From Salinisphaera sp. T31B1 (GTDB lineage: Bacteria > Pseudomonadota > Gammaproteobacteria > Nevskiales > Salinisphaeraceae): a stretch of DNA of 64,000 bases. The notes below the pieces were generated by a model. It was not told the DNA's origin. It worked only from the letters and a program-made list of their open reading frames with translations, and did not search any database. The position numbers and the translations under genes are program-made. The stretch covers positions 372,001 to 436,000 of the forward strand of contig NZ_APNH01000003.1 of NCBI RefSeq assembly GCF_040361275.1, given 5' to 3'. Shown piece by piece: positions 2,267 to 15,483 of this stretch; the first letter of the stretch is position 1, and every line of letters starts with the position of its first letter.

Positions 2267-4116
2267 CACGCGCTCGCCCGCGTGTCGATGTCTTCGGCGA
2301 GAAAGCCGCCCGACTGCATGCGCCAGAGACGCGCATATAATCCGTCGGCGGCCAGCAGCGTCTCGTGGCGGCCGGTTTCGACGATGGCTCCGCCATCGAT
2401 CACCACCAGCCGGTCGAGCGCCGCGATGGTCGACAGCCGGTGCGCGACCGCGATGACCGTCTTGCCGGCCATCAACCGATGCAGGTTTTCGGTGATCGCG
2501 GCCTCCACTTCGGAATCCAGCGCGGCCGTCGCCTCGTCCAGCAGCAGGATGGGCGCGTTCTTCAGCATCACCCGTGCCAGCGCGATACGCTGACGCTGGC
2601 CACCCGACAACTTGACCCCGCGCTCGCCGACCATGGCCTCGAGACCGCGCCGGCCCTGGGCGTCGACCAGTTCGCTGATGAAGCCGTCGGCATGAGCGGC
2701 GGCCAGCGCGGTGCGTACCTCGGCATCGCTCGCATCGGGCCGGCCGTAGCGTACGTTGTCGCCCACCGAGCGGTGCAGCAATGCGCTGTCCTGGGTGACC
2801 ATGCCGATCGCCGCTCGCAACGACGCCTGGGTGACATCCGCCACGTTCTGGCCGTCGATGACGATACGGCCTGTCTCTAGATCGTGAAAACGCAGCAGCA
2901 GGGAAAGCAGGGTCGACTTGCCCGCGCCGGACCGGCCGACGAGTCCGATCTTCTCGCCGGGTTCGATGGTCAGGGAGAAGTCGTCGATCACCCCGTGGCC
3001 GCGACCGTAGTGAAAGCCGACCCGCTCGAAAGCGATGGCGCCGGCCGAGACCGCCAGCGGCGCGGCGTGCTCGGCATCGACCAGCGACTGGGTGCGGGCG
3101 AACGTGGCCATGCCGTCCCGCAGCGTACCGATGTTCTCGAATAGCTGGGAGACTTCCCACATGATCCATTGCGCCATGCCGTTGATCCGCAGCACGAGGC
3201 CGATCGCAGCCGCAATCGCGCCGGCGCTGATCAACGCCGACTGCCATAGCGCGATGCCCAGGCCGGCGACCGCGAGCAGCAGCAGCGAGTTGATCAGATA
3301 CAGACTGGCGTAGAACGCGTTGATTCGGCGCATCTGGGCATAAACAGTCTTCAGAAAGCTGCGCATGCTCGCGCGGGCATAGTCGCCCTCGCGTTCTGTG
3401 TGGGCGAACAGCTTGACCGTGGCGATATGGGTATAGGCATCGACCACACGCCCGGTCATCTCCGCCCGGGCATCGGCCTGGCGCTCGGCGATATGCCCCA
3501 GCCGCGGCACGAAGTAGCGCAGCAGGCTGACGTAGGCAGCTAGCCAGGCGATGAACGGCGTCGCCAGGCGCCAGTCCGCGCCGGCGACCAGGACCACGAT
3601 GCCGGTGAAGTAGACCACCACATAGAGCATGACATCGAGAAACTTCATTACCGTCTCGCGCACGGCCAGCGCGGTCTGCATCAGCTTGGTGGCCACCCGA
3701 CCGGCGAATTCGTCGGCGAAGAAATCCAGCGACTGGCCGAGCAGCCAGCGATGCGTCGTCCAGCGAAAGCGCATCGGGAAATTGCCCGACAGCGCCTGGA
3801 ACGTCACCAGCCCCTCGATGAAAACCAGCAGCGGCAGTATCACCAGGACCACCAGCGCCATGCCCGACAGCGCCCAGGCGTTGTCGCTGACGAATGTCTG
3901 GCGCGGGCTGTGGGCGAACCAGTCGACGATATGCCCGAGAAAGGCGAACAGGGAGACCTCGATGATCGAGATCGCCGCGGTGAGAATCGCCATGGCCAGC
4001 AGCAGTGGCCAGACCGGGCGCGCGTAAAAGACGATGAACCGCCACAGGTTGCCGCGCGGGGGCTCGCGTGGGTCGTCGGGAAACGGCGCAATCAGGCGCT
4101 CGAAAAAAGAAAACAT
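2266..4116 (-). CDS. ABC exporter, fused membrane and ATPase domains
   Basis: A 616-residue half-transporter of the MsbA/ABCB type. Residues about 30-320 form a six-helix membrane domain; residues about 350-590 are the nucleotide-binding domain. The Walker A motif (GRSGAGKST), signature (LSGGQRQR), Walker B (ILLLDEATAALD) and H-loop (AVAHRLSTI) are all intact, so it should be an active homodimeric exporter of lipids, peptides or drugs. I place the start at the ATG at 4116 (MFSFFERL); 25 further in-frame codons upstream look unlike the family. It leads a two-gene unit with the DMT transporter. The substrate is unknown. Confidence 0.9.
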   Translation of the reverse strand: MFSFFERLIAPFPDDPREPPRGNLWRFIVFYARPVWPLLLAMAILTAAISIIEVSLFAFLGHIVDWFAHSPRQTFVSDNAWALSGMALVVLVILPLLVFIEGLVTFQALSGNFPMRFRWTTHRWLLGQSLDFFADEFAGRVATKLMQTALAVRETVMKFLDVMLYVVVYFTGIVVLVAGADWRLATPFIAWLAAYVSLLRYFVPRLGHIAERQADARAEMTGRVVDAYTHIATVKLFAHTEREGDYARASMRSFLKTVYAQMRRINAFYASLYLINSLLLLAVAGLGIALWQSALISAGAIAAAIGLVLRINGMAQWIMWEVSQLFENIGTLRDGMATFARTQSLVDAEHAAPLAVSAGAIAFERVGFHYGRGHGVIDDFSLTIEPGEKIGLVGRSGAGKSTLLSLLLRFHDLETGRIVIDGQNVADVTQASLRAAIGMVTQDSALLHRSVGDNVRYGRPDASDAEVRTALAAAHADGFISELVDAQGRRGLEAMVGERGVKLSGGQRQRIALARVMLKNAPILLLDEATAALDSEVEAAITENLHRLMAGKTVIAVAHRLSTIAALDRLVVIDGGAIVETGRHETLLAADGLYARLWRMQSGGFLAEDIDTRASA

Positions 4117-4359
4117 CCGGCTTCGGTACGCGTGGGCGAGGCTGTGACGATCAGCGCGCCAGTCTACCGCGATCGCGCCGTGACGACCCATCGGCGACCG
4201 ACAATGATTACGGTAGCGCCGACCCGACGACGATCTTCAAGCGGGGACGCAGCCTGTGTCTGCAATAGGCCAAGGCCGCGCCCGGCACTGGGGCACGCGT
4301 CGTCGTTCGTTGCTGCGTGGGACGTCGGTCGGGCGCCTGCCCGCCACGCGAGCGCGTGT

Positions 4360-4637
4360 TCAGAAGTCGAAGGCCACCGCGCGCAGCGTATCCAGATATA
4401 CCCTCGTCGCGGTCGGGCGGGCCCGGACAGCGTCGTACATGCGCACGCCAGCCAGGATGTTCAGCTGGGCCGGACGCCCTGCGGGCAATCCGTGGCCATC
4501 GGCATCGGGCGCATCGCCGCGCGTCGCCGACGGCTCGGTGGGGCGGATGGACGCAATGCGAGCGCCGAAGATCGATCGTGAACCGGCCGTCGCGATCCGG
4601 CAGGCGCGTATCGACGATCTGCAGGCCGATACGGTCA
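4360..4637 (-). pseudogene. Collapsed cytosine deaminase-like amidohydrolase remnant
   Basis: Directly behind the cytosine permease stop lies about 90 codons of degenerate coding sequence in two frames. The first piece (about 4570-4630) reads like an amidohydrolase N-terminus (LQIVDTRLPDRDGRF). After a frame change it continues 'ARIASIRP' and soon joins a piece like an amidohydrolase C-terminus (GLPAGRPAQLNILAG, then TRVYLDTLRAVAFDF to a TGA at 4360). The whole metal-binding core between the ends, some 300 residues, is absent. Because codB normally pairs with codA, I infer a cytosine deaminase gene that lost its middle and then frameshifted. The C-terminal match to CodA is weak, so a related amidohydrolase is possible. 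Confidence 0.5.
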
Positions 4638-5897
4638 GCGCGTCGAGGCCGCGGCGCGTCGTTCGCCGGCCTGTCCAAAAGCATAACTGGCGGTCAGGTA
4701 CACGACGAATGCGGCTACCACCGCATTGATCGGCGGTATGCCGGGCAACAGGTTGGCCGCGGCAAAACCGGCCGCCCAGGCGGCTACGGCGGTCCAGTTG
4801 ACGTCGCGGAGATCGATCTGATCGAGCGCGCGATAGCGGCCGCGGGCCAGGACGAAGAAATCCGCGATCAGGATCGCGCCGATCGGCGGCAGCGCTGAGC
4901 TGAGAAAGCTCAGCCAGCCGACGAAATTGTTGTACAGCCATAACGCGGCCAGGGTGCCGATCGCCCCATTGGCGAGCACGATCCAGTGCTTGGGCCAGCC
5001 CGTGATATTGGAAAATCCCAACGACGCGGCATAGAGCGCATTGTCGTTGGTCGTCCAGATGTTGAGCCCGAGCACGACGATTGCGGGAATGATCAATCCC
5101 TGGGCGAACATCACCTGGGAAATGTCGGACTCGCTATAGACCAGCGCGCCCACTGCACCAAAAGTGAACATCAGCGAATTGCCCAGAAAAAAGGCGATCA
5201 GCGTGGTGGCGACGCCGATCGCGGGTGTCTTGGCAAAACGCACGAAGTCCGGCGTCAGCGTAGCGCCGCTGATGAACGAGCCGATGCAGGTCGTCAGCGC
5301 GACCGCCAGCGTGATCGGGTCCGACGGCTGGATCGCCGCGAGTGCGTCGAGCCCGCCGACCTCGCCCACAGCCAGGCCGACCGACAGATTGCCCAGCACG
5401 AGGATGGCGGGCACGGCGATGAAGCTCAATACGGCCAGTGCCTTGAAACCGAGATAGGCCGTGGCCGTCATGAGCACGCCGCCGATGCCGATCAGCAGGT
5501 AGGTATCGATGCCCGTGGCCACCTGTACGGGCAGGGCGAACATCACCACACCCACGCCGAACCAGCCCACCTGGGTCGCCCCCAACAGGAAAGAGGGCAA
5601 CCAGGAGCCGCGGACGCCAAAGGCATAGCGGCTGATGAGATGGGTGGACAGCCCCGTGCGGCTGGCGGCCAGGGCCAGACAGGCGGCATACAGGCCCAGC
5701 ACGAGGTTGCCCGCCAGCACGACCCACACGAATCGGGCCAGCGTCAGCCCTTCGCCGAGCGTGCCGCCGCCCCACATACTGGCCGAAAAGAAGGTGAAGC
5801 CCAGCATCACTGCGAACATGGTCCAGAAGCCGCGCCTGGCGTGCGCCGGTACGGCGGTCAATTCGTAATCGTCGGACGTCGTGTGGGTTTCGGACAT
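4635..5897 (-). CDS. codB: Cytosine permease (NCS1 family)
   Basis: A 420-residue protein with about twelve membrane helices, essentially the length of E. coli CodB. After a short cytosolic leader it runs 'FTFFSASMWGGGTLGEGL', the CodB-type helix 1, and includes 'LISRYAFGVRGSW', typical of the purine-cytosine permease family. It should import cytosine with protons or sodium. Normally cytosine is then deaminated by CodA, but here the downstream gene looks destroyed (see the remnant at 4360-4637). Imported cytosine would therefore need another deaminase, or the permease now handles a different base. It lies downstream of, and on the same strand as, the decarboxylase-like gene. Confidence 0.9.
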   Translation of the reverse strand: MSETHTTSDDYELTAVPAHARRGFWTMFAVMLGFTFFSASMWGGGTLGEGLTLARFVWVVLAGNLVLGLYAACLALAASRTGLSTHLISRYAFGVRGSWLPSFLLGATQVGWFGVGVVMFALPVQVATGIDTYLLIGIGGVLMTATAYLGFKALAVLSFIAVPAILVLGNLSVGLAVGEVGGLDALAAIQPSDPITLAVALTTCIGSFISGATLTPDFVRFAKTPAIGVATTLIAFFLGNSLMFTFGAVGALVYSESDISQVMFAQGLIIPAIVVLGLNIWTTNDNALYAASLGFSNITGWPKHWIVLANGAIGTLAALWLYNNFVGWLSFLSSALPPIGAILIADFFVLARGRYRALDQIDLRDVNWTAVAAWAAGFAAANLLPGIPPINAVVAAFVVYLTASYAFGQAGERRAAASTR

Positions 5898-6806: not shown

Positions 6807-7259
6807 CTATTTCTGGACAGCACCGCTCCGTTCGTTCTGCTGGTTATAGCGGTCGATACGGTGACCCAAGCCTTCGGCCTCGGGGTTGCCATAGTCGCCG
6901 CTGTTGTCGGCCGCGCCCGGTGGCTGTTGCTCGGGCAATGCCGCGCCACTGCGATCGGGCTCGCTCGACTGGTTGTAGCGATCCACACGTTGTCCCATCG
7001 AGGACGCCTGGGACGGATCGGTCATGCCCGTATCAGCGCCGTCGTCGCGCTGCGCGTGGTCGCGATCGTGGGCGATGGCGGGAGACTCATTGTGGCGTTC
7101 GTTGTACTTGTTGATCTTGTCGGCCAGCGGTTCAGTCTGATCCGAAGACCGGTCGGCCATTGCCTCGCCCGCGGCCCAGGCCGGTGCAAGCGGACTCAGC
7201 GCGGTGACGGCGGCGATAACGGCGGCCGCAACGAAACGATCGAAATGGTGGTCTGTCAT
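6807..7259 (-). CDS. Small secreted protein with YN repeats
   Basis: A 150-residue protein with a clear Sec signal peptide (hydrophobic residues 9-27, cleavage near AWA-A). The mature part is polar, acidic and predicted disordered. Three copies of a short repeat stand out: LADKINKYNERHN, MGQRVDRYNQSS and LGHRIDRYNQQN, spaced through the protein. I do not recognise a named family. The next gene upstream encodes a protein with the same repeat. The start is well supported by a GGAGGGAG ribosome-binding site just upstream of the ATG. Confidence 0.75.
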   Translation of the reverse strand: MTDHHFDRFVAAAVIAAVTALSPLAPAWAAGEAMADRSSDQTEPLADKINKYNERHNESPAIAHDRDHAQRDDGADTGMTDPSQASSMGQRVDRYNQSSEPDRSGAALPEQQPPGAADNSGDYGNPEAEGLGHRIDRYNQQNERSGAVQK

Positions 7260-7393: not shown

Positions 7394-7867
7394 CTAGCGC
7401 AGGTTGGACGCCTGACCGTCGAGGATATTGCTGTGCCCGCCGGTCGCGTTGTAGCGCGTGATCTCGCGGCCGAGATCAAGCGCCTCGCGGTGCGGGCCGG
7501 ACGTGCTCGCTACCGGATGGGTGTCACGGGCGGCGATCGCGCCGGCGACGTCGCGCTGGTTATAGGCATCGACGGCGGCTGCCAGTCGGCCGGCCGCGGG
7601 GGCCGGGGCGTCGCCGATAGCCGTCGGCGCGGCATGGCCGTCGGCAATGGCCCCGGGTACGGCACGTGCGTTATACGCATCCAGGGAGGCGGCCAGACGA
7701 TCGGCGGCGGCATGACCGTTGTCTGCGGCCGGCGCCGGTGTCGCCACAGGATCGGGCTGCAAGGCCTGAAGGGCACCCTGTTGGGCCGAGGCAGTACTTG
7801 CGGCACCCAGGGCGAGTAGGGTCGAGACGGCGAGCAACCGGCCGGTCTGCAATATTGAAGACTTCAT
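7394..7867 (-). CDS. Small secreted protein with YN repeats (paralogue)
   Basis: A 157-residue protein with a Sec signal peptide (cleavage near ASA-Q) and an Ala/Pro-rich mature part. It carries two near-identical units, DRLAASLDAYNARAVPGAIA and GRLAAAVDAYNQRDVAGAIA, and a third shorter one, LGREITRYNATGG. The core (L-x-x-x-[LIV]-x-x-YN) matches the repeat in the downstream gene, so the two look like diverged duplicates. The function is unknown; extracellular or periplasmic location is inferred from the signal peptide. A GGAG ribosome-binding site precedes the ATG and a terminator follows the gene. Confidence 0.75.
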   Translation of the reverse strand: MKSSILQTGRLLAVSTLLALGAASTASAQQGALQALQPDPVATPAPAADNGHAAADRLAASLDAYNARAVPGAIADGHAAPTAIGDAPAPAAGRLAAAVDAYNQRDVAGAIAARDTHPVASTSGPHREALDLGREITRYNATGGHSNILDGQASNLR

Positions 7868-8029: not shown

Positions 8030-8629
8030 TCAGGCCGTAGCCACGAAGCGCATCGCCACCGCGTTCATGCAATAGCGCAGGCCGGTCGGCCGTGGACCGT
8101 CGTGAAACACGTGGCCCAGATGCGCATCGCAGCGCCGGCACACGATCTCGGTGCGGCGCATTCCGAAGCTGGTATCGGTGTGTTCGGCGACGTTCTCGGG
8201 GGCGATGGGTTGCCAGAAACTCGGCCAGCCGGTGCCGGAATGAAACTGCGTCGCCGCATCGTAGAGCGCGGTATCGCAGCAGATACATCGGTAGATCCCG
8301 GGTTGCTCCGGCTTCTCGTAATCTCCGCTGTAGGCGCGCTCGGTGCCGGCCTGACGGGTCACCCGATAGGCGGCGTCCGAAAGCTGTTCGCGCCAGGCGG
8401 CGTCGCTTTTGACGACCTTGGCCAACCGGCGTTCGCCGATGCGCTGGCCGTTTTCGTCGAAGACCACGAGCCGGACGGTCGCCGGCTCGGCCGCCCGTGC
8501 CACCTGTGCCAGACCGAGGCTGGCCAGTGCCAGCGCGCCACCGCCGACCCCGATCAGCTTGAGCGTGCGTCGGCGGCCCGGGTCGGCGATGGTGTCAGAG
8601 GCGTGTGCGTGTCTCGAGGATATTTTCAT
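8030..8629 (-). CDS. msrB: Exported peptide-methionine (R)-S-oxide reductase
   Basis: A 199-residue MsrB with an N-terminal Tat-type leader (RRRTLKLIG followed by a hydrophobic stretch ending ARA-A), so it should act in the periplasm. It reduces methionine-R-sulfoxide in proteins. The MsrB domain spans about residues 85-195. Zinc ligands are two CxxC pairs (CICC, CRRC), and the catalytic cysteine is in 'RYCMNAVAMRF'. The SGTGWPSF motif that binds the substrate is intact. The ATG at 8629 overlaps the stop of the MsrP-like gene (ATGA, 8626-8629), so the two are coupled; this decides the start over an ATG 15 bases upstream. How a periplasmic MsrB is re-reduced is not shown here. Confidence 0.92.
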   Translation of the reverse strand: MKISSRHAHASDTIADPGRRRTLKLIGVGGGALALASLGLAQVARAAEPATVRLVVFDENGQRIGERRLAKVVKSDAAWREQLSDAAYRVTRQAGTERAYSGDYEKPEQPGIYRCICCDTALYDAATQFHSGTGWPSFWQPIAPENVAEHTDTSFGMRRTEIVCRRCDAHLGHVFHDGPRPTGLRYCMNAVAMRFVATA

Positions 8630-9411
8630 AGCCCGGCCCACCATTCATAGCCGCGATCCTCCCAGTAGCCACCCTTGCCGCCCTGGATATCGCGGAAGTT
8701 GTCGACGAGTTGCAGACGCATCACATACTTGGCGTTCTTGTAGCCGAGCTGGCGTTCGGCCCGCAGACGAATCGGTGCGCCGTTGGCGATCGGCAGATCG
8801 GCGCCGTTCAGGCTGTAGGCCAGCAGCGACTGCGGATGATAGGCCTCGACCATATCGAGGCTTTCGTAGTACTTCACCGGGCCGCCGTAGGTGTTGTCTG
8901 CGCAATGGAAGACCACGAAACGGGCGCTGTCCTTGGGCCGCACCTGGTCCAGCAGATCGCCCAGCACCGCGCCGGTCCACTGGCCGATGCAGCTCCAGCC
9001 CTCGACACAGTCGTGACGGGTGATCTGGGTACGTGACGGCAGTGCCTTGAGCTGTTCAAGCGAAAACTCGCCCGGCCGATCGACCAGGCCGTCGACGGCC
9101 AGTCGGTAATCGACGAAGTTGGCCGCGGCCATTCGTTGATAGTCTTCGTTGTCGGGGTTGGTCGTGCCGTTGGGCCGAAAGGTGTCGGCGATCATGGAGG
9201 CATCGAATTCGCGAGCCAGCGACTCGCGCGAGGCGACCAGCCGCTGGGCATAGCGTGTCAGCCACTGCGTATTGTCCAGAAACGACTGCACCTGGTCGTT
9301 GCGCGACAGGCTGTCGCAGCCGGTCAGCGCGGCCGTGGCACCGAGCGCCCCCAGGCCGGTAATCAGCCGGCGACGTCGCGGATCGGGAACGATGAGCTTG
9401 CGCTTAGTCAT
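8626..9411 (-). CDS. MsrP-like molybdopterin-dependent oxidoreductase
   Basis: A 261-residue protein of the sulfite-oxidase fold (SUOX/YedY) with a Tat motif (RRRRLITGLGA) and then 'LTGC', a possible lipobox. The molybdenum-ligating cysteine is in 'RHDCVEGWSC', as in YedY/MsrP. Other conserved parts are 'PNGTTNPDN', 'VVFHCADN', 'YYESLDM' and 'LLAYSLNG'. YedY/MsrP repairs oxidised methionines in periplasmic proteins using electrons from a membrane haem protein. Here the partner is a cytochrome b561 encoded immediately upstream, with the genes overlapping by 8 bp, and an MsrB is coupled downstream. Methionine-sulfoxide reduction is inferred from fold and context; another S- or N-oxide is possible. 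Confidence 0.85.
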   Translation of the reverse strand: MTKRKLIVPDPRRRRLITGLGALGATAALTGCDSLSRNDQVQSFLDNTQWLTRYAQRLVASRESLAREFDASMIADTFRPNGTTNPDNEDYQRMAAANFVDYRLAVDGLVDRPGEFSLEQLKALPSRTQITRHDCVEGWSCIGQWTGAVLGDLLDQVRPKDSARFVVFHCADNTYGGPVKYYESLDMVEAYHPQSLLAYSLNGADLPIANGAPIRLRAERQLGYKNAKYVMRLQLVDNFRDIQGGKGGYWEDRGYEWWAGL

Positions 9412-10291
9412 GGTCGGCGGCTCCCTTGGCGGCCGGCCGGCCGTCGTTCGCATCCTGGGGCAGGCGATAACCGCCGGTGGTCATCGAGCGCAGGTTGTTG
9501 AATACGCCCGAGACCAGCACGAGCAGGATATGCACGATGAAAAACGCCACCAGCGAAAAGGCGAAGATGAAATGCAGGGTACGCGCGCTCTGCCGGCCGC
9601 CGAAGATATCCAGCAGCCACGGCCAGGCCGCGTTCATGGTCGGCGACATGGTCAAACCGGTGAGAATCATCAGCGGCAGCAGGCAGAACAGCACGAGGAT
9701 ATAAGTCAGCTTCTGCAGCCCGTTGTAATCGCGCGCGTGATCGAACCGAAACCGCATGTGATGCCATATCGTGCGCGGTAGCCCCCGCCATTGGGCTCTG
9801 GAAGGAAAGATCATCCGGCGACGGCGCGAGCTGACCACGGTATAGAGCAAATAGACCAGCAGCGACGGGCCGAAAATCCATGCGGCGGTGAAGTGCCAGT
9901 TGCGGCCCAGCGCGAGCCACTGCGAGCTCGGCAGCGTCGCCCAGGCCGGAAAGCCGCGCTGGGCCAACTCCCCGTTGGCCTCCGACAGCCCGAATAGCCC
10001 GGTGGTATCGAACTGGTGCCCGAGTACGCGGGTCGCGCCCATCGGGTTGCCGTCGGGGCCGCGCATTGCGCCCATGGCCAGCAACGGCGAATCGAAATGC
10101 GATGTCTGGCCCCAGTACAGGGCCGGATGCGCGTTGAATATCTGCAGGCCGCTCATCAGCAGGACGAGCAGACAGATTGCGTTGAGCCAATGCCAGGCAC
10201 GAGTCGCCCAGCCGTGGCGCTTGATGACGGTCGACGACAGCCTGGCTGCAGGTGCGCGCGGCGTGTCGGTGGGACGGGTGGATGTATTCAT
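9404..10291 (-). CDS. Cytochrome b561-type membrane subunit
   Basis: A 295-residue di-haem b-type membrane protein of the cytochrome b561 / formate-dehydrogenase-gamma superfamily. Likely haem-ligand histidines are in 'RHGWATRAWHWLNA' before helix 1 and in 'TLHFIFAFSLVAFFIVHI' in the last helix. Other hydrophobic segments lie near residues 115-135 and 195-215. It would pass quinol electrons to the exported molybdoenzyme whose gene overlaps its 3' end. In E. coli the equivalent partner (MsrQ/YedZ) belongs to a different haem family, so this is a variant pairing. The ATG at 10291 follows the Met-rich gene by 61 bp. Confidence 0.88.
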   Translation of the reverse strand: MNTSTRPTDTPRAPAARLSSTVIKRHGWATRAWHWLNAICLLVLLMSGLQIFNAHPALYWGQTSHFDSPLLAMGAMRGPDGNPMGATRVLGHQFDTTGLFGLSEANGELAQRGFPAWATLPSSQWLALGRNWHFTAAWIFGPSLLVYLLYTVVSSRRRRMIFPSRAQWRGLPRTIWHHMRFRFDHARDYNGLQKLTYILVLFCLLPLMILTGLTMSPTMNAAWPWLLDIFGGRQSARTLHFIFAFSLVAFFIVHILLVLVSGVFNNLRSMTTGGYRLPQDANDGRPAAKGAADHD

Positions 10292-10352
10292 GATGTACTC
10301 GCTGAACAGACAAGCCTGCCGGCCGGTTGGGGCAGCCGGCAGGCCGTGCTCG

Positions 10353-10661
10353 TCACATCTTGTTGTCGTGGCTCATGCCGTCGTGCGACTCGCCCTTGTC
10401 GCCTTTCATGGCGTCGCCGGACATCTTGTCGTCGGGCGACATGCTGTCGCTTTTCATCTTGTTGTCGTGGGACATGCCGTCATCGTGTTTCATGCCCTGG
10501 GTATGGCCTTCGGCGGCCTTGTCGTCCTGCATGCCCGTCGTGCTCTGATCGGACATGTGGTCGTCGTCCATCGCGCTGGCCGAGGCGGCCCAGAACAGAC
10601 AGGTGGAACAGGCCAGCGCTGCGGCGAGGGCGGTGAACTTGGAGGGTTTGGATAGGGACAT
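10353..10661 (-). CDS. Methionine-rich secreted MxKDx-type repeat protein
   Basis: A 102-residue protein with a signal peptide (cleavage near ASA-M). The mature part of about 70 residues contains roughly eleven methionines in units such as GMKHDDGM, DNKMKSDSM and DDKMSGDAM, resembling the pentapeptide MxKDx repeat family. It is very hydrophilic and lacks cysteine. The ATG at 10661 is chosen because an AGGAGA ribosome-binding site precedes it and the signal peptide begins there. It is the first gene of the leftward unit with cytochrome b561, the MsrP-like enzyme and MsrB. A sacrificial oxidant-scavenging role, its methionines being oxidised and then re-reduced by those enzymes, is an inference. 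Confidence 0.82.
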   Translation of the reverse strand: MSLSKPSKFTALAAALACSTCLFWAASASAMDDDHMSDQSTTGMQDDKAAEGHTQGMKHDDGMSHDNKMKSDSMSPDDKMSGDAMKGDKGESHDGMSHDNKM

Positions 10662-10770
10662 TGTGCGTCTCCTCTGGATTTTCGAATGATGACACCGGGC
10701 CGGCTTGGCCCGAGGTGCTCGCACCGTTGGGTACGATCGCAGTCCATCCTGTGATGCACAACCGGACCAG

Positions 10771-10824
10771 TCATCACGAATCGGTCACGCCCGCGAGATC
10801 ACGTTCGTGACGCGATCGTGATGA
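10771..10824. promoter_or_regulatory. Large inverted repeat, candidate response-regulator operator
   Basis: TCATCACGA (10771-10779) is mirrored exactly by TCGTGATGA (10816-10824). Nested inside, GTCACG (10784-10789) is mirrored by CGTGAC (10806-10811). The palindrome lies between the divergent Met-rich operon and the two-component operon. It could bind the response regulator encoded at 10885 and control both directions. The function is inferred from position and symmetry only. Confidence 0.5.
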
Positions 10825-10884
10825 GGACGGGCGTGGCGAGCGCTAGGATAAGCACGTCACGCGTATCCGCCCGAGCACCGATTC

Positions 10885-11619
10885 ATGGCACAACGCATTC
10901 TCTGCGTCGAAGACGACCCGGACATCGGCCGCCTGCTGATGGCGATCCTCGGCGAGGCCGGCTATCCGGCGGACTGGGCACGTACCGGCGAGCAGGCGCT
11001 CGCACGTTGGCCGCAGGCTTCGCTCGTGCTGCTCGATCTGATGCTGCCGGATACCGACGGTTTGACGGTTTGCCGGGAAATCCGACGTCGCGACAGTGGC
11101 CTGCCGTTGATCATGCTCACGGCCAAGGCCGGCACCTCGGATGTGGTGCGAGGCCTGGAGATCGGCGCTGACGACTACATGACCAAGCCGTTCGAGGCGA
11201 GCATTCTGCTGGCGCGCGTTCAGGCGCTGCTGCGTCGTCGCCCGCCCGCGCCTGCCGACGCGCCCGCCGGTGAAGCCACGCCGCATGTGTTCGGCGAGCT
11301 CAGCATTGACCGGCAGGCGCACCGGGTCACCCTCTCCGGCACGCCGCTGGCCCTCACCGCGAAGGAGTTCGCGCTGCTGCTGCTGTTCGCGAGTCATCCG
11401 GGCCGGGTGTTCTCGCGCGGCGAGCTGCTCGACGCCGTCTGGGGGCCGGAGTTCGACGGCTTCGACCATACGGTCAACACGCATATCAACCGGCTGCGCG
11501 GAAAAATCGAGGCCGATGCAGCCAGTCCGCGATATATCCATACGGTCTGGGGGGTGGGGTATCGGTTCGCCGACGCCGTCAGCGAAGCCGCGCATCAGCG
11601 CCGAGGACCCGGCGCTTGA
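10885..11619 (+). CDS. OmpR-family response regulator
   Basis: A 244-residue two-domain regulator. The receiver domain (residues 3-115) has the acidic pocket 'EDDPD', the phospho-acceptor Asp in 'LLDLMLPDTDG' and the conserved Lys in 'MTKPFE'. The C-terminal winged-helix DNA-binding domain (about 135-235) ends 'YIHTVWGVGYRF', the OmpR/PhoB signature. It is followed by its histidine kinase with overlapping stop and start codons. The gene is divergent from the Met-rich/b561/MsrP-like/MsrB unit, as hprRS (yedWV) neighbours msrPQ in E. coli, so control of that unit is a reasonable inference. Confidence 0.92.
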   Translation: MAQRILCVEDDPDIGRLLMAILGEAGYPADWARTGEQALARWPQASLVLLDLMLPDTDGLTVCREIRRRDSGLPLIMLTAKAGTSDVVRGLEIGADDYMTKPFEASILLARVQALLRRRPPAPADAPAGEATPHVFGELSIDRQAHRVTLSGTPLALTAKEFALLLLFASHPGRVFSRGELLDAVWGPEFDGFDHTVNTHINRLRGKIEADAASPRYIHTVWGVGYRFADAVSEAAHQRRGPGA

Positions 11620-13103
11620 GCGTGCGCCGATACGGAGCGGACGCGCTGCGGGCTTTCTGGCACAGCCTGTATGCGCGGATCGCGCTGGTCTACCTGGCGA
11701 GTTTGCTGGTGCTGTCGGTAACCGCGGCCTGGATCGCGGTCAGCCAGTTCGATCAGCTCGGCCGCGAATTCCAGCAGCGGATGCAGATCGACCTGGCGGA
11801 CAATCTGGCCCAGGTCATGCGCGCGCCGCTGGCCGACGGGCCGGCCAGCGCGGCGGCCGCCGAGGCCGCGCGACTGATCCTGTCGATCAACCCTTCGCTG
11901 TCGCTGTACGTGCTGGATCACCAGGGCCGGGTCGTCGGCGACTATGGCCGACCCGGTTGTACGCGCCCGTCGCCGGTGGATACGCAGCCGCTCGACCGGC
12001 TGCTGGGTGCGGAGCCGATGCTGCCAGTGTTCGCCGTCGCGCCTTGCAGTCGTCAGGCCAGCGTGTTTTCGGTGGCTCAGGTCGAGTACGGTCACCAGGC
12101 CACGCCCGGCTATCTGTTCGTGGTGCTGGATGCCGGGCGACGCATGTCGATGTTCGCCATGCTGCGCACCAGCAGCATTACGCGGACGCTGTTGATCGCG
12201 GGCGGTCTCGCGCTGCTGCTGTCCGGTATTCTCGGCTTGTTGCTGTTTGCCGTGCTCACACGGCGTTTCACGCGCCTGACCCATGCGGTACAGCGTTTTG
12301 CCGAGGGCCACTCGGGCCAGCGTATTACTCCGATACGCAACGACGAGATCGGCCGGCTAGGGCGCGCGTTCAACGACATGGCGGCTACCATTGAGATCCA
12401 GCTCAATGCGCTGCGCGAGAACGATCGCCAGCGCCGGGAACTGGTGGCCAATCTGTCGCACGACTTCCGTACGCCTTTGACCTCGCTACAGGGTTATGCA
12501 GAGCGGCTGCAGGGCGGCGACACGCTGACGTCGGCGGCCCGCCGCGCACATCTGGATGCGATTCTGGCGAACGCAGCCCGGCTGACCCAGCTCGCCGAGC
12601 AGCTGTCCACGCTCGCACGGCTCGATGCACACGAACGGCCCTTGAACGAAGAACCATTTTCTCTGGCCGAGCTGGCCTATGACATCGCCGGCAAATTCCA
12701 GCCGCAGGCCGAGGCCGCACAGGTGCGGCTCGAGATACGTCGTATGTCCACCCAGACTCTGGTCCGGGCCGATCTGGCGCTGATCGACCGACTGTTGACC
12801 AATTTGATCGACAATGCCTTGCAGGCGACGCCCCCCGGCGGGCTGGTATGGCTGGATGCCGTGGCGACAGGCGATCGCGTACAGGTGTGTGTCGGAGATA
12901 CCGGCGCAGGGCTGGCCGAGGAAGAGATCGGATTGGTGACTCAGCGGTTCTATCGCACGCGTGCCGGGCGCGAGCGCGGCGAAGGATCGGGATTGGGCCT
13001 GTCGATCGTCGAGGACATCTGTAACCGACATGGCACGCGTCTTCAGATCGATAGCCGGCCCGGGGCCGGGGCGCGGATGATGTTCGATCTGCCCAGCAGC
13101 TGA
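11616..13103 (+). CDS. Membrane sensor histidine kinase
   Basis: A 495-residue sensor kinase. Two membrane helices (about 18-42 and 188-215) flank a periplasmic sensing domain of about 145 residues that contains two cysteines (GCTRP, APCSR), a possible redox-sensing feature. HAMP, HisKA (VANLSHDFRTPLTSLQGY, phospho-acceptor His) and HATPase_c domains follow, with N-box 'LLTNLIDNALQA' and G-box 'GEGSGLGLSIVED'. The start is a TTG whose last two bases begin the TGA of the regulator gene (11616-11619), so translation is coupled; a GTG two codons later is the alternative. A bidirectional terminator lies downstream. Confidence 0.9.
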   Translation: MSVRRYGADALRAFWHSLYARIALVYLASLLVLSVTAAWIAVSQFDQLGREFQQRMQIDLADNLAQVMRAPLADGPASAAAAEAARLILSINPSLSLYVLDHQGRVVGDYGRPGCTRPSPVDTQPLDRLLGAEPMLPVFAVAPCSRQASVFSVAQVEYGHQATPGYLFVVLDAGRRMSMFAMLRTSSITRTLLIAGGLALLLSGILGLLLFAVLTRRFTRLTHAVQRFAEGHSGQRITPIRNDEIGRLGRAFNDMAATIEIQLNALRENDRQRRELVANLSHDFRTPLTSLQGYAERLQGGDTLTSAARRAHLDAILANAARLTQLAEQLSTLARLDAHERPLNEEPFSLAELAYDIAGKFQPQAEAAQVRLEIRRMSTQTLVRADLALIDRLLTNLIDNALQATPPGGLVWLDAVATGDRVQVCVGDTGAGLAEEEIGLVTQRFYRTRAGRERGEGSGLGLSIVEDICNRHGTRLQIDSRPGAGARMMFDLPSS

Positions 13104-13145
13104 ATCGCCTCGATGGCCATCGCGTATAGAACGCGGTTTTCACGC

Positions 13146-13180
13146 CAAAAAAAAGACGGCCCGAGGGCCGTCTTTTTTTC
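13146..13180. terminator. Bidirectional rho-independent terminator
   Basis: An 8-bp GC-rich stem (13154-13161 with 13166-13173, loop of four) is flanked by an A-run on the left and a T-run on the right. It can end transcription of the histidine kinase gene from the left and of the convergent Met-rich protein gene from the right. Confidence 0.9.
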
Positions 13181-13217
13181 GACTGCGAAACGCGCGCGGC
13201 GTTTCGGCGAAGTCTTA

Positions 13218-13568
13218 CTACATGCTGTCGGTGCTGGTTTTATCCGAATCGCCGGGCATGTCCATGTTGGAATTTTCCGGCTGCGACGACGAGTTGTCAT
13301 CGGTCATGCCTTGTTCGCTGGACATCTGGTCGTGGGTCGACTCGCTGTCCTGGCCGGTTGTGCCGTGGTCCATGCTGTCGTGCTTCATGGTACCGCTGCT
13401 CTCACCGCTCGGGGTCATGCTGTCTTCGTGTGTCATGCCGCTATCGGTGGACATGTCGGTGTCGCCCGTGCTGCTGCTTTGGGCAAGCGCGGCAGTACCG
13501 AACGTGAGCGCGCCGGCGAATGCCAGCGAGCACATCAATGCGGTGGTGGTGCGTTTGGATGACTGCAT
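13218..13568 (-). CDS. Methionine-rich secreted protein
   Basis: A 116-residue protein with a signal peptide (cleavage near ALA-Q). The mature region of about 87 residues holds about ten methionines in Ser/Asp/His/Thr-rich surroundings (DTDMSTDSGM, MTHEDSM, MKHDSMDHG, NMDMPGDS) and is probably disordered. It is the same kind of protein as the one at 10353-10661 but with a looser repeat. The two flank the two-component pair. A GGAG ribosome-binding site precedes the ATG, and the gene ends at the shared bidirectional terminator. A sacrificial Met-oxidation or metal-binding role is inferred from composition. Confidence 0.75.
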   Translation of the reverse strand: MQSSKRTTTALMCSLAFAGALTFGTAALAQSSSTGDTDMSTDSGMTHEDSMTPSGESSGTMKHDSMDHGTTGQDSESTHDQMSSEQGMTDDNSSSQPENSNMDMPGDSDKTSTDSM

Positions 13569-13813: not shown

Positions 13814-14092
13814 TTACTGCGTGTAGTCCGAGCCCTGGGTCGTACCGGCGTCCTGGTTGGGCTTGGCCGGATCGGCCGGCGCGGCCGACGTGTCGGATTT
13901 GGCCCGGTCGTCGGTCTGTTTCCGTGTGGCGTGGTCGTAGCTCATCCGGTCGCCGTTGTCCGAGGGCTCATGCTGCTCGGCACTCGGCGCTTCGGACTGG
14001 CCGGCGGCGACGGCCGCGCCGCCACTCAGCACGGCGATGCCGCACAGAGCGCCCGCCGCGATACGGGTCAGTGTGGATCGGTCGTATGACAT
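13814..14092 (-). CDS. Small secreted hydrophilic protein
   Basis: A 92-residue protein with a signal peptide (hydrophobic residues 10-29, cleavage near AVA-A) and a charged, probably disordered mature part rich in Asp, Ser, Gln and Pro. There is no recognisable domain. An AAGGAA ribosome-binding site supports the ATG. It lies between two other small secreted protein genes on the same strand, so it belongs to the local cluster of envelope proteins. The function is unknown. Confidence 0.6.
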   Translation of the reverse strand: MSYDRSTLTRIAAGALCGIAVLSGGAAVAAGQSEAPSAEQHEPSDNGDRMSYDHATRKQTDDRAKSDTSAAPADPAKPNQDAGTTQGSDYTQ

Positions 14093-14139: not shown

Positions 14140-14445
14140 TCAGAACGCCTTGTTGTTCAGCTGGTCGCCGTCATTGGGCAGCGGATCACGGCGGTTGGAC
14201 ATGCTGTCCACGCTGACATCGCTGCGGTTGTCGCTTCCGTGCTCGGAACGACTGTGGTTCGGCACCTGTGCGGCCTTGGTTTCCGGCGTACCGGTGATGC
14301 CGTCTTCCAGATGCGTACCGCCGGCCTCGATGTTGATCGGGGGCTCCTGGTCGGCACGGGCACCGGTGTCGGCAAGGCCAACGCTCGAGGCGCCGAGCAG
14401 CAGGGCGGCGGCAACAGCGCTCAGAAGAGGGGTCTTATGGCTCAT
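14140..14445 (-). CDS. Small secreted hydrophilic protein
   Basis: A 101-residue protein with a signal peptide (cleavage near GLA-D) and a polar, Asn/Asp/Ser-rich mature part (for example NHSRSEHGSDNRSD) that is probably disordered. No family is recognised. A GGAG ribosome-binding site precedes the ATG. It is divergent from modA. Like its neighbours it has no cysteine and little predicted structure, consistent with a stress-related periplasmic protein, but the function is not known. Confidence 0.6.
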   Translation of the reverse strand: MSHKTPLLSAVAAALLLGASSVGLADTGARADQEPPINIEAGGTHLEDGITGTPETKAAQVPNHSRSEHGSDNRSDVSVDSMSNRRDPLPNDGDQLNNKAF

Positions 14446-14599
14446 GGCAAATCTCCATCCGCGCGGGGCGGTCTATGAAATGGAACTATCAAAATCTGCG
14501 TTGCGATAGATATAGGGATGATTGCGGGAAAAACAATAGCGCGCGATCGAAATCGACGCGCCGCGCATCTTGGCCGGTCCGGCGGTCGACCGTGCGGGC

Positions 14600-14623
14600 C
14601 GCTATGTAGTAGGCTATATATCG
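14600..14623. promoter_or_regulatory. Probable ModE operator upstream of modABC
   Basis: The 24 bases from 14600 to 14623 begin CGCTATGTAG and end TATATATCG. From memory, this aligns without gaps to the reverse complement of the E. coli modA ModE site, with about 17 of 24 positions matching, including the flanking CG ends and the TATGTAG half. It lies 51 bp before the modA ATG, where molybdate-loaded ModE would block transcription. No modE gene is in the window. Confidence 0.7.
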
Positions 14624-14673
14624 AAATCCGCGCGGACGGCGACCACGTTCCGCGCTCCGATAGGAAATCCGGC

Positions 14674-15483
14674 ATGTTGAATCGCTCTGTCGGCGGCCTC
14701 GGTTCCCGGGCCGTCCTGCTGACCCTGTGTCTGCTTGCGATGTTCTACCGGCCGGCCTACGCCGCCGACGATTCATTGCTGGTCTTTGCCGCAGCGAGCC
14801 TCAAGAACGCGATGGATGATGTCGCCACGGCGTTTGAAGAAACTCACGGCGGCGACATCAGAATCAGCTATGCCGGCAGTTCGACACTGGCGCGTCAAAT
14901 CGAGCGCGCCGCGCCGGCCGATATCTATGTCTCGGCGAACCAGGACTGGATGGATCGGGTCGAGACCGACGAGTTCATCGACAACCACAGCCGTATCGAT
15001 CTGCTGGCCAACGCGCTGGTGCTGGTCGCACCGCGCAACCGCGATACCCGGCTGAAAATCGCCCAGGGGTTTCCGATCGTGAGTGCGCTCGGCGATCGTT
15101 ATCTGGCCATGGCCAATACCGAGGCCGTGCCGGCAGGGTTGTACGGGCGACAGGCGTTCGAGCACTTGCACGTCTGGGAGGCGCTGCAGGGCCATATCGC
15201 CCAGGCCGACGACGTACGCGCGGCGCTGGCGCTGGTAGCACGTGGCGAATCGCCGCTGGGTGTGGTCTACGCCAGCGACGCGGTGGCCGAACCTCACGTG
15301 CGCGTGGTCGACACCTTTCCCGCCGACAGCCACGACCCGATCGTCTACCCGGCCGCGATTCTCAAGCACGTCGACAAACCGCTGGCGGACGCGTTCATGA
15401 GCTTCCTGCAGGGCAGCCGGGCGACGGCGATCTTCAAGCGCTGGGGGTTCGCGCGGGCCGCGGCGCCGGCGCGTCGCCGCTGA
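14674..15483 (+). CDS. modA: Molybdate ABC transporter, binding protein
   Basis: A 269-residue periplasmic binding protein with a signal peptide (residues about 1-31, cleavage at AYA-A). The mature protein begins 'LLVFAAASLKNAMDDVATAF' and continues 'YAGSSTLARQIERAAPADIY', both typical of ModA; the conserved serines of 'AASL' and 'GSS' help bind the oxyanion. It captures molybdate or tungstate and delivers it to ModB. The ATG at 14674 is preferred over an ATG 156 bases upstream because the signal peptide starts there and AGGA precedes it. It is the first gene of modABC, behind a probable ModE site. Confidence 0.94.
   Translation: MLNRSVGGLGSRAVLLTLCLLAMFYRPAYAADDSLLVFAAASLKNAMDDVATAFEETHGGDIRISYAGSSTLARQIERAAPADIYVSANQDWMDRVETDEFIDNHSRIDLLANALVLVAPRNRDTRLKIAQGFPIVSALGDRYLAMANTEAVPAGLYGRQAFEHLHVWEALQGHIAQADDVRAALALVARGESPLGVVYASDAVAEPHVRVVDTFPADSHDPIVYPAAILKHVDKPLADAFMSFLQGSRATAIFKRWGFARAAAPARRR

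Follow-up and report, generated by a model that had tools for sequence, protein, structure and literature searches.

The closest studied relative of the locus described here is the OrhK/OrhR system of Escherichia coli CFT073, whose operon C3566-C3568 is reported to be activated by peroxide and to protect against it (PMC8550376; this and the other papers given by PMC number are used here in excerpt). In Azospira suillum, mrpX-yedY1-yedZ1 with sigF/nrsF is described as scavenging hypochlorite (PMC4623255, PMC5748585, citing Melnyk 2015), perchlorate islands of two other strains are described as carrying yedYZ and mrpX plus exported MsrA and MsrB (PMC4623255), and Brucella bcrXQP with bcrS/abcS is described as induced by, and protective against, hypochlorous acid (PMC8315932). 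The locus considered here lies in a 64,000-nucleotide stretch of Salinisphaera sp. T31B1 DNA (the window; contig NZ_APNH01000003.1, positions 372,001 to 436,000). Its minus-strand unit (8030-10661) encodes, in order of transcription, a methionine (Met)-rich secreted protein (peptide 1), cytochrome b561, an MsrP-like molybdoenzyme and MsrB; an OmpR-type regulator/kinase pair is divergent from it, and a second Met-rich secreted protein (peptide 2) lies past the kinase. With a probability of roughly 0.68, we read this locus as a system of the MrpX-YedY-b561 kind that serves methionine redox cycling and repair in the periplasm and is controlled by an OrhKR-like two-component pair, on the basis of gene content, gene order, homology, a shared divergent operator sequence, conserved residues and neighbourhood. 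The genes named in the initial annotation, including the divergent pair and the second Met-rich protein, are at the places that it had given, and Pfam and NCBIfam profile scans agree with its gene families; the observation was right, and the function proposed there is likely so in outline.

The plan of the locus is that of the E. coli OrhK/OrhR-C3566/C3567/C3568 cluster, in which an OmpR-type pair is likewise divergent from genes for a PF01292 cytochrome, an MsrP-like lipobox enzyme and a Met-rich peptide. The likeness extends to homology, with the enzyme 36-37% and b561 26% identical to their counterparts, and with regulator, kinase and sensor also homologous. Thus, the regulator was 47-49% identical to two E. 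coli OrhR-type regulators and 37% to HprR, and the kinase was 30-31% identical to OrhK-type kinases over its full length. A sensor profile made from 19 kinases scored the two E. coli OrhK-type kinases at 53.2 and 40.7 bits and did not match HprS in the same search of 12 proteins; HprS itself matched the window kinase only outside the sensor (22.5%). E. coli hprRS, with which the locus had initially been compared, is therefore a poorer comparison than OrhRK, and on these identities K-12 HprRS/MsrPQ is more distant from the window than the OrhKR cluster. Within the periplasmic sensor, three residues, cysteine (Cys) 115, Met135 and Cys144, were invariant in 20 of 20 Salinisphaera and Halomonadaceae kinases. 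Since residues 40-185 contain 28 invariant positions, these three included, they are not exceptional in number. All three are absent from the two E. coli OrhK-type kinases, whose sensor is homologous. A structural disulfide is as possible as a role in sensing.

The neighbourhood is kept beyond this genome, as the first account had anticipated. We took the best 80 of at least 568 confirmed enzyme relatives in named genomes (the named loci), the nearest of which are from Salinisphaera (74-78% identical). In 79 of them b561 directly precedes the enzyme, and the exception, L093, starts at a contig end; the seven b561 misses in the automatic table were six detector misses and this contig end. A Met-rich secreted protein adjoins the enzyme in 42 of the 80, as judged by a strict detector (secreted, same strand, within 1.9 kilobases (kb) of the enzyme) that misses at least two readable cases, L038 and L039. 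The density of such proteins was 43 in 298 kb beside the enzyme versus 3 in 1113 strand-kb farther off, and the pooled Met content of the 43 was 18.9%. A homologous two-component pair is divergent beside 19 loci (both genes in 18, the kinase alone in L056), every one from Salinisphaera or Halomonadaceae; a regulator match in L111, 5.4 kb away on the other strand, was left out of this count, and L037 has its pair at a contig edge, with a regulator fragment beside the peptide gene. Elsewhere, an extracytoplasmic function (ECF) sigma factor lies beside at least seven loci, all Phyllobacterium (one query, 40 bits), and a ModA-like gene near seven, all Salinisphaera. Queries with DUF1109 and CcdA found neither in any of the 80 loci.

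Between the peptide 1 and regulator genes lies a convergent pair of TCACG-N6-TCACG tandem repeats. The exact repeat occurs 10 times in the 4.36-megabase (Mb) genome, versus 8 times for the reversed pattern, and only these two copies lie near each other; with one mismatch allowed, the window holds 5 single sites versus 8 expected. Because single sites are thus at chance level and only the convergent pair stands out, we do not claim a wider regulon. With at most one mismatch per arm, the convergent pair was found in 14 of 20 two-component loci and in 0 of 14 other stretches. A looser outer-arm pattern, written after the sequences had been viewed, matched 18 of the 20 two-component loci; among 60 other loci (825 kb), three held 4 matches between them. 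It came up 0.3 times per shuffle of the 19 fetched two-component loci, the shuffle preserving dinucleotides within 500-base blocks only. L040 and L044 miss this pattern but read as near variants. A Halomonas plasmid stretch (L116), in which two-component genes were not looked for, has no convergent pair. The inner arms, TCACG-N16-CGTGA, resemble the OrhR site, which is printed as TCACA-N15-TGTGA (PMC8550376). At this predicted operator, OmpR-type binding would activate transcription in both directions.

The b561 and enzyme genes overlap by 8 base pairs (bp), and the enzyme and MsrB genes by 4 bp from the ATG ending at 8629 or by 19 bp from the upstream ATG, so the overlaps first described are real. 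The Met-rich gene is set apart from b561 by a 61-bp gap with a strong hairpin, which corrects the earlier picture of the unit. This 13-pair stem-loop directly behind the peptide 1 gene ranked first in an inverted-repeat scan that found 7 sites versus 3.7 expected in shuffles, and the folding energy of the gap was -30.9 (z -3.5). Across 27 such gaps that were folded, z ranged from +0.6 to -6.0, with 14 at -2 or below; an additional gap was too short. The stem-loop may act as a leaky terminator that leaves more peptide than enzyme.

Of the two Met-rich proteins, peptide 1 answers closely to its first description as a secreted protein with about eleven Met in some 70 mature residues heading the unit; its 74 residues after the predicted signal cut become 72 if the cut falls two residues later. 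With a chosen Met rate of 2.2%, the binomial P values were 6.8e-7 for peptide 1 and 2e-5 for peptide 2, and the Met share in the long open frames of the window was 1.6%. Recurrence beside homologous operons is better evidence than these values. Peptide 1 matched no family (NCBIfam to E 0.1, Pfam to E 0.01); peptide 2 scored 15.4 bits against the pentapeptide MXKDX family (TIGR02953), whose curated cut-off of 41 was reached by neither peptide.

The assignment of the molybdoenzyme to the YedY type held as to family, with an Oxidored_molyb domain and MsrP as the best NCBIfam model; since its 97.5 bits fall short of the MsrP cut-off of 207, we call it MsrP-like rather than MsrP. It is 32% identical to K-12 MsrP over 148 residues, and a K-12 MsrP query of the genome matched this locus only. 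Cys135, presumably the molybdenum ligand, is present in all 85 aligned enzyme rows, and both the lipobox Cys32 and an extra Cys170 in 84 of the 85, K-12 MsrP being the exception each time. The lipobox pattern matched directly in 76 of the 85 rows, 73 of these ending in GCD, and eight of its nine misses were rows with the wrong upstream frame. In E. coli, aspartate after the lipid-bearing Cys is an inner-membrane retention signal.

In b561, four candidate haem ligands, histidine (His) 34, 133, 240 and 254, were kept in 81-83 of 83 aligned rows. PF01292 was found in the cytochromes of all six relatives scanned with Pfam, which suggests that b561-type partners are usual in this enzyme subfamily. 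The window b561 had no match to K-12 MsrQ and no solved relative up to E 0.1. As had been proposed, b561 stands here in place of MsrQ: the genome holds no MsrQ-type (PF01794) protein at E 0.001, in a search that was positive in an E. coli control. A near-universal lipobox and a usual b561-type partner are not predicted by the MsrPQ picture. On a Sphingomonas plasmid (L117:195-4693), genes for an ECF factor, DUF1109, thioredoxin, CcdA and DUF1223 are followed by b561 and MsrP-like genes, perhaps as a source of thiol electrons next to this pair of enzymes.

MsrB scored 181.8 bits against TIGR00357, above the cut-off of 113.05. Its CxxC pairs, which we take to be zinc sites, and its RYC motif, for which we likewise assume the customary role, are visible. 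An MsrB gene is near the enzyme in 5 of the 80 named loci; when unnamed relatives were added and copies with the same protein merged, it lay behind the enzyme in eight loci (window, L008, L010/L038, L012/L052, L013/L051, L014/L055, L015 and L016); the L015 sequence contains very many unknown residues and closely resembles that of L012. In L037, a different MsrB is found beyond the peptide gene together with an MsrA-like gene, so that recruitment of exported Msr genes may have happened more than once. There (4055-5500, minus strand), the MsrA-like and MsrB genes, with export signals, stand between the regulator fragment and the remaining two-component pair, as if inserted. The genome encodes three matches to DsbD-type proteins, two of them strong.

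These observations are consistent with a system in which the kinase would detect an envelope oxidant (peroxide or reactive chlorine or bromine species), possibly by means of the invariant Cys115, Cys144 and Met135, and the regulator would bind the tandem repeats and activate both divergent units. The hairpin behind the first gene would make the Met-rich protein more abundant than the enzymes, and its Met residues would be oxidised in place of those of other proteins. The membrane-anchored MsrP-like enzyme would then re-reduce Met-sulfoxide with electrons from quinol via b561, and exported MsrB would also reduce the R-sulfoxide, using thiol electrons that DsbD probably supplies. A neighbouring molybdate-type importer would fit the need for a molybdenum cofactor. 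A response of the operon to oxidants is likewise expected from this analysis. The most specific form of this proposal, a Met buffer with two electron supplies (quinol, b561 and the MsrP-like lipoprotein; thiols, DsbD and MsrB exported by the twin-arginine pathway) and a kinase that reads oxidation through the Cys pair and Met, is doubtful.

Table 1. Features of the locus, in positions of the window.
Feature	Position	Strand	Evidence
Peptide 1, Met-rich and secreted; candidate sacrificial scavenger; leads the operon	10353..10661	-	11 Met/74 mature residues
Stem-loop, 13 pairs, in the peptide 1/b561 gap; possible leaky terminator	10313..10345	-	inverted-repeat scan, folding
Cytochrome b561, proposed quinol-to-enzyme electron conduit	9404..10291	-	PF01292, E 3.8e-26
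MsrP-like molybdoenzyme, twin-arginine signal and lipobox	8626..9411	-	Oxidored_molyb, E 9.3e-32
MsrB, twin-arginine signal, alternative start at 8629	8030..8644	-	SelR, E 2.4e-49
Divergent operator, TCACG-N6-TCACG arms	10774..10821 (arms 10774-10789, 10806-10821)	+ and - (arms, in that order)	sequence pattern
OmpR-type response regulator, OrhR-like	10885..11619	+	Pfam; identity to E. coli OrhR-type regulators
Histidine kinase, OrhK-like, periplasmic sensor with Cys115, Met135, Cys144	11616..13103	+	HAMP, HisKA, HATPase_c
Terminator-like inverted repeat with flanking A and T runs, in the kinase/peptide 2 gap	13147..13180	.	by eye; not listed by inverted-repeat scan
Met-rich secreted protein 2; regulon membership not supported	13218..13568	-	10 Met/86 residues
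Neighbouring gene for a probable ModA (molybdate import), perhaps aiding cofactor supply	14518..15483	+	SBP_bac_11, E 1.2e-52

Around these genes lie further small secreted proteins. Two low-complexity, low-Met proteins (13814-14092 and 14140-14445, both minus strand), neither with a Pfam or NCBIfam match, separate peptide 2 from the probable ModA, for which we assume molybdate specificity. Two others, also of low complexity (6807-7259 and 7394-7867, both minus strand), each carry a motif of the hydrophobic-x-x-Tyr-Asn type in three copies (for example RVDRYNQ and SLDAYNARA).

Several observations weigh against a single methionine-cycling system of this composition. The full set of peptide, b561, enzyme, MsrB and pair was present in three genomes only (the window's, G008 and L038), G008 being judged by its kinase sensor alone, which lies 2.3 kb away from the enzyme and on the opposite strand. 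Within Salinisphaera, the enzyme is encoded in 13 of 14 genomes and the sensor in 7, so that half lack the sensor; in two of these seven, G005 and G007, it is far from the enzyme (different contigs or 1.6 Mb apart). The hairpin was not significant in 13 of the 27 gaps and is therefore not general. Two further weak MsrP-family matches to the window enzyme indicate that the genome contains other molybdoenzymes of the superfamily. For peptide 2, no operator matched at one mismatch, and a terminator-like sequence lies before the gene. For lack of this operator we rejected co-regulation of peptide 2, even though four other Salinisphaera loci (L033, L034, L035 and L036) carry a similar gene at the equivalent position. 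Of the two sacrificial peptides first suggested, both are indeed Met-rich and secreted, but a role for the second in the system is unproven and the claim weak.

In the enzyme tree, the window groups with five rows (four Salinisphaera and L037; support 98/83), and this group belongs to a larger one of 26 rows from Salinisphaera, L037 and Halomonadaceae (94/96, not starred). The E. coli copy falls apart from the window, joined on a long branch by a copy from a Burkholderia plasmid (100/100), and the two-component label needs two changes; regulators and enzymes may therefore have separate histories.

The alternative that survives best is envelope repair: the main task of b561, the MsrP-like enzyme and MsrB would be to mend oxidised periplasmic proteins, as MsrPQ does, with the peptide as a minor or accessory substrate. 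In L051, L052 and L055, MsrB adjoins b561-enzyme operons with no detected neighbouring Met-rich gene, so that MsrB may serve the enzyme or general repair and not the peptide; this too counts against methionine cycling as proposed. The b561-enzyme pair is also far commoner among the named loci than the Met-rich neighbour, although the detector is known to miss some of the latter. We nevertheless think repair alone improbable: in two-component loci the Met-rich gene leads the operon immediately after the operator, in many cases with a stem-loop behind it, and the density of Met-rich genes beside the operon is far above background.

Considerably less likely is a copper or silver response, in which the Met-rich proteins would bind Cu(I) or Ag(I) and the pair would sense the metal. 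Met-rich sites bind copper, peptide 1 contains six His, and regulator and kinase gave sub-threshold matches to metal-type NCBIfam models (162.6 bits, cut-off 279.2, and 141.4 bits, cut-off 292.55). In E. coli, msrP is reported to be copper-induced (PMC9302797). However, His ranges from 0 to 18% among the 43 Met-rich neighbours whereas Met never falls below 8% (a minimum that the 7% limit of the detector partly imposes), no copper gene is annotated among the 10 window proteins scanned, the conserved partners are Met-sulfoxide reductases, and the closest studied relative responds to peroxide (PMC8550376).

Finally, a sulfite dehydrogenase feeding electrons to b561, with MsrB and the Met-rich genes as bystanders, would share the fold family and the weak SorA and SoxC matches (58.7 and 53.1 bits), but is very improbable given cut-offs of 600 and 420 for these models, the better score of the MsrP model, a best solved relative (1xdq) that we take to be E. 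coli YedY/MsrP though its depositors titled it a bacterial sulfite oxidase, the overlap of MsrB with the enzyme gene and the recurrence of Met-rich neighbours.

We therefore return to methionine redox cycling and its place among described systems. The divergent pair, cytochrome, MsrP-like enzyme and peptide of the OrhKR-type cluster are also present on E. coli pVR50B and in ATCC 25922, where the peptide has 12-14 Met in 79-80 residues; in ATCC 25922 the enzyme gene equals that of CFT073 over 744 of 744 bases and the cytochrome is annotated as frameshifted. Of 5426 complete E. coli genomes, 73 carry the plasmid form (L113:1126-5108), at 76 places that are all on plasmids, and 282 carry the chromosomal enzyme gene. 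A DNA search of E. coli with an Erwinia relative gave no match. In contrast to the window, the OrhKR cluster has no MsrB, its peptide gene comes last instead of first and its sensors lack Cys115, Met135 and Cys144; its operon in CFT073 is also reported to be co-transcribed with hemolysin genes (PMC8550376). The initial statement that no described system has exactly this set thus holds for the literal five genes, and the same plan without MsrB is that of OrhKR. Likewise, an MsrB of its own distinguishes the window from OrhKR but not from every printed system, since exported MsrA and MsrB are reported together with yedYZ and mrpX (PMC4623255). Among the matches listed in the open-licence literature, none described this operon from Salinisphaera or Halomonas, and no paper in that literature combined cytochrome b561, methionine sulfoxide reductase and molybdopterin.

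In K-12 HprRS-HiuH-MsrPQ, as in the window, an OmpR-type pair stands divergent to an operon for a periplasmic Met-sulfoxide reductase; no Met-rich peptide is annotated in that stretch, and the window differs in an enzyme below the MsrP cut-off and a PF01292 rather than PF01794 partner. With Azospira mrpX-yedY1-yedZ1, as described, the window has in common a Met-rich periplasmic peptide, a YedY-type reductase and a membrane partner, and with Brucella bcrXQP, likened by description, a Met-rich peptide and an MsrQP-like pair. However, the Azospira system is reported to be under an ECF sigma/anti-sigma pair and that of Brucella under ECF control, whereas the regulators adjoining the window operon are an OmpR-type pair. 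The kind of system is therefore already described; its combination of OrhKR-like control, a leading peptide gene with a hairpin and an exported MsrB is new. New here are the divergent tandem-repeat operator, Cys115, Met135 and Cys144 of the kinase, the lipobox Cys of the enzyme, the hairpin, the lack of a PF01794 match in the genome and the MsrB beside the operon. A halophile operon is in this way joined with the E. coli OrhKR cluster by homology and with the Azospira and Brucella systems by plan, and it offers non-pathogen hosts, a defined operator and three mutable kinase residues for the study of envelope oxidation sensing.

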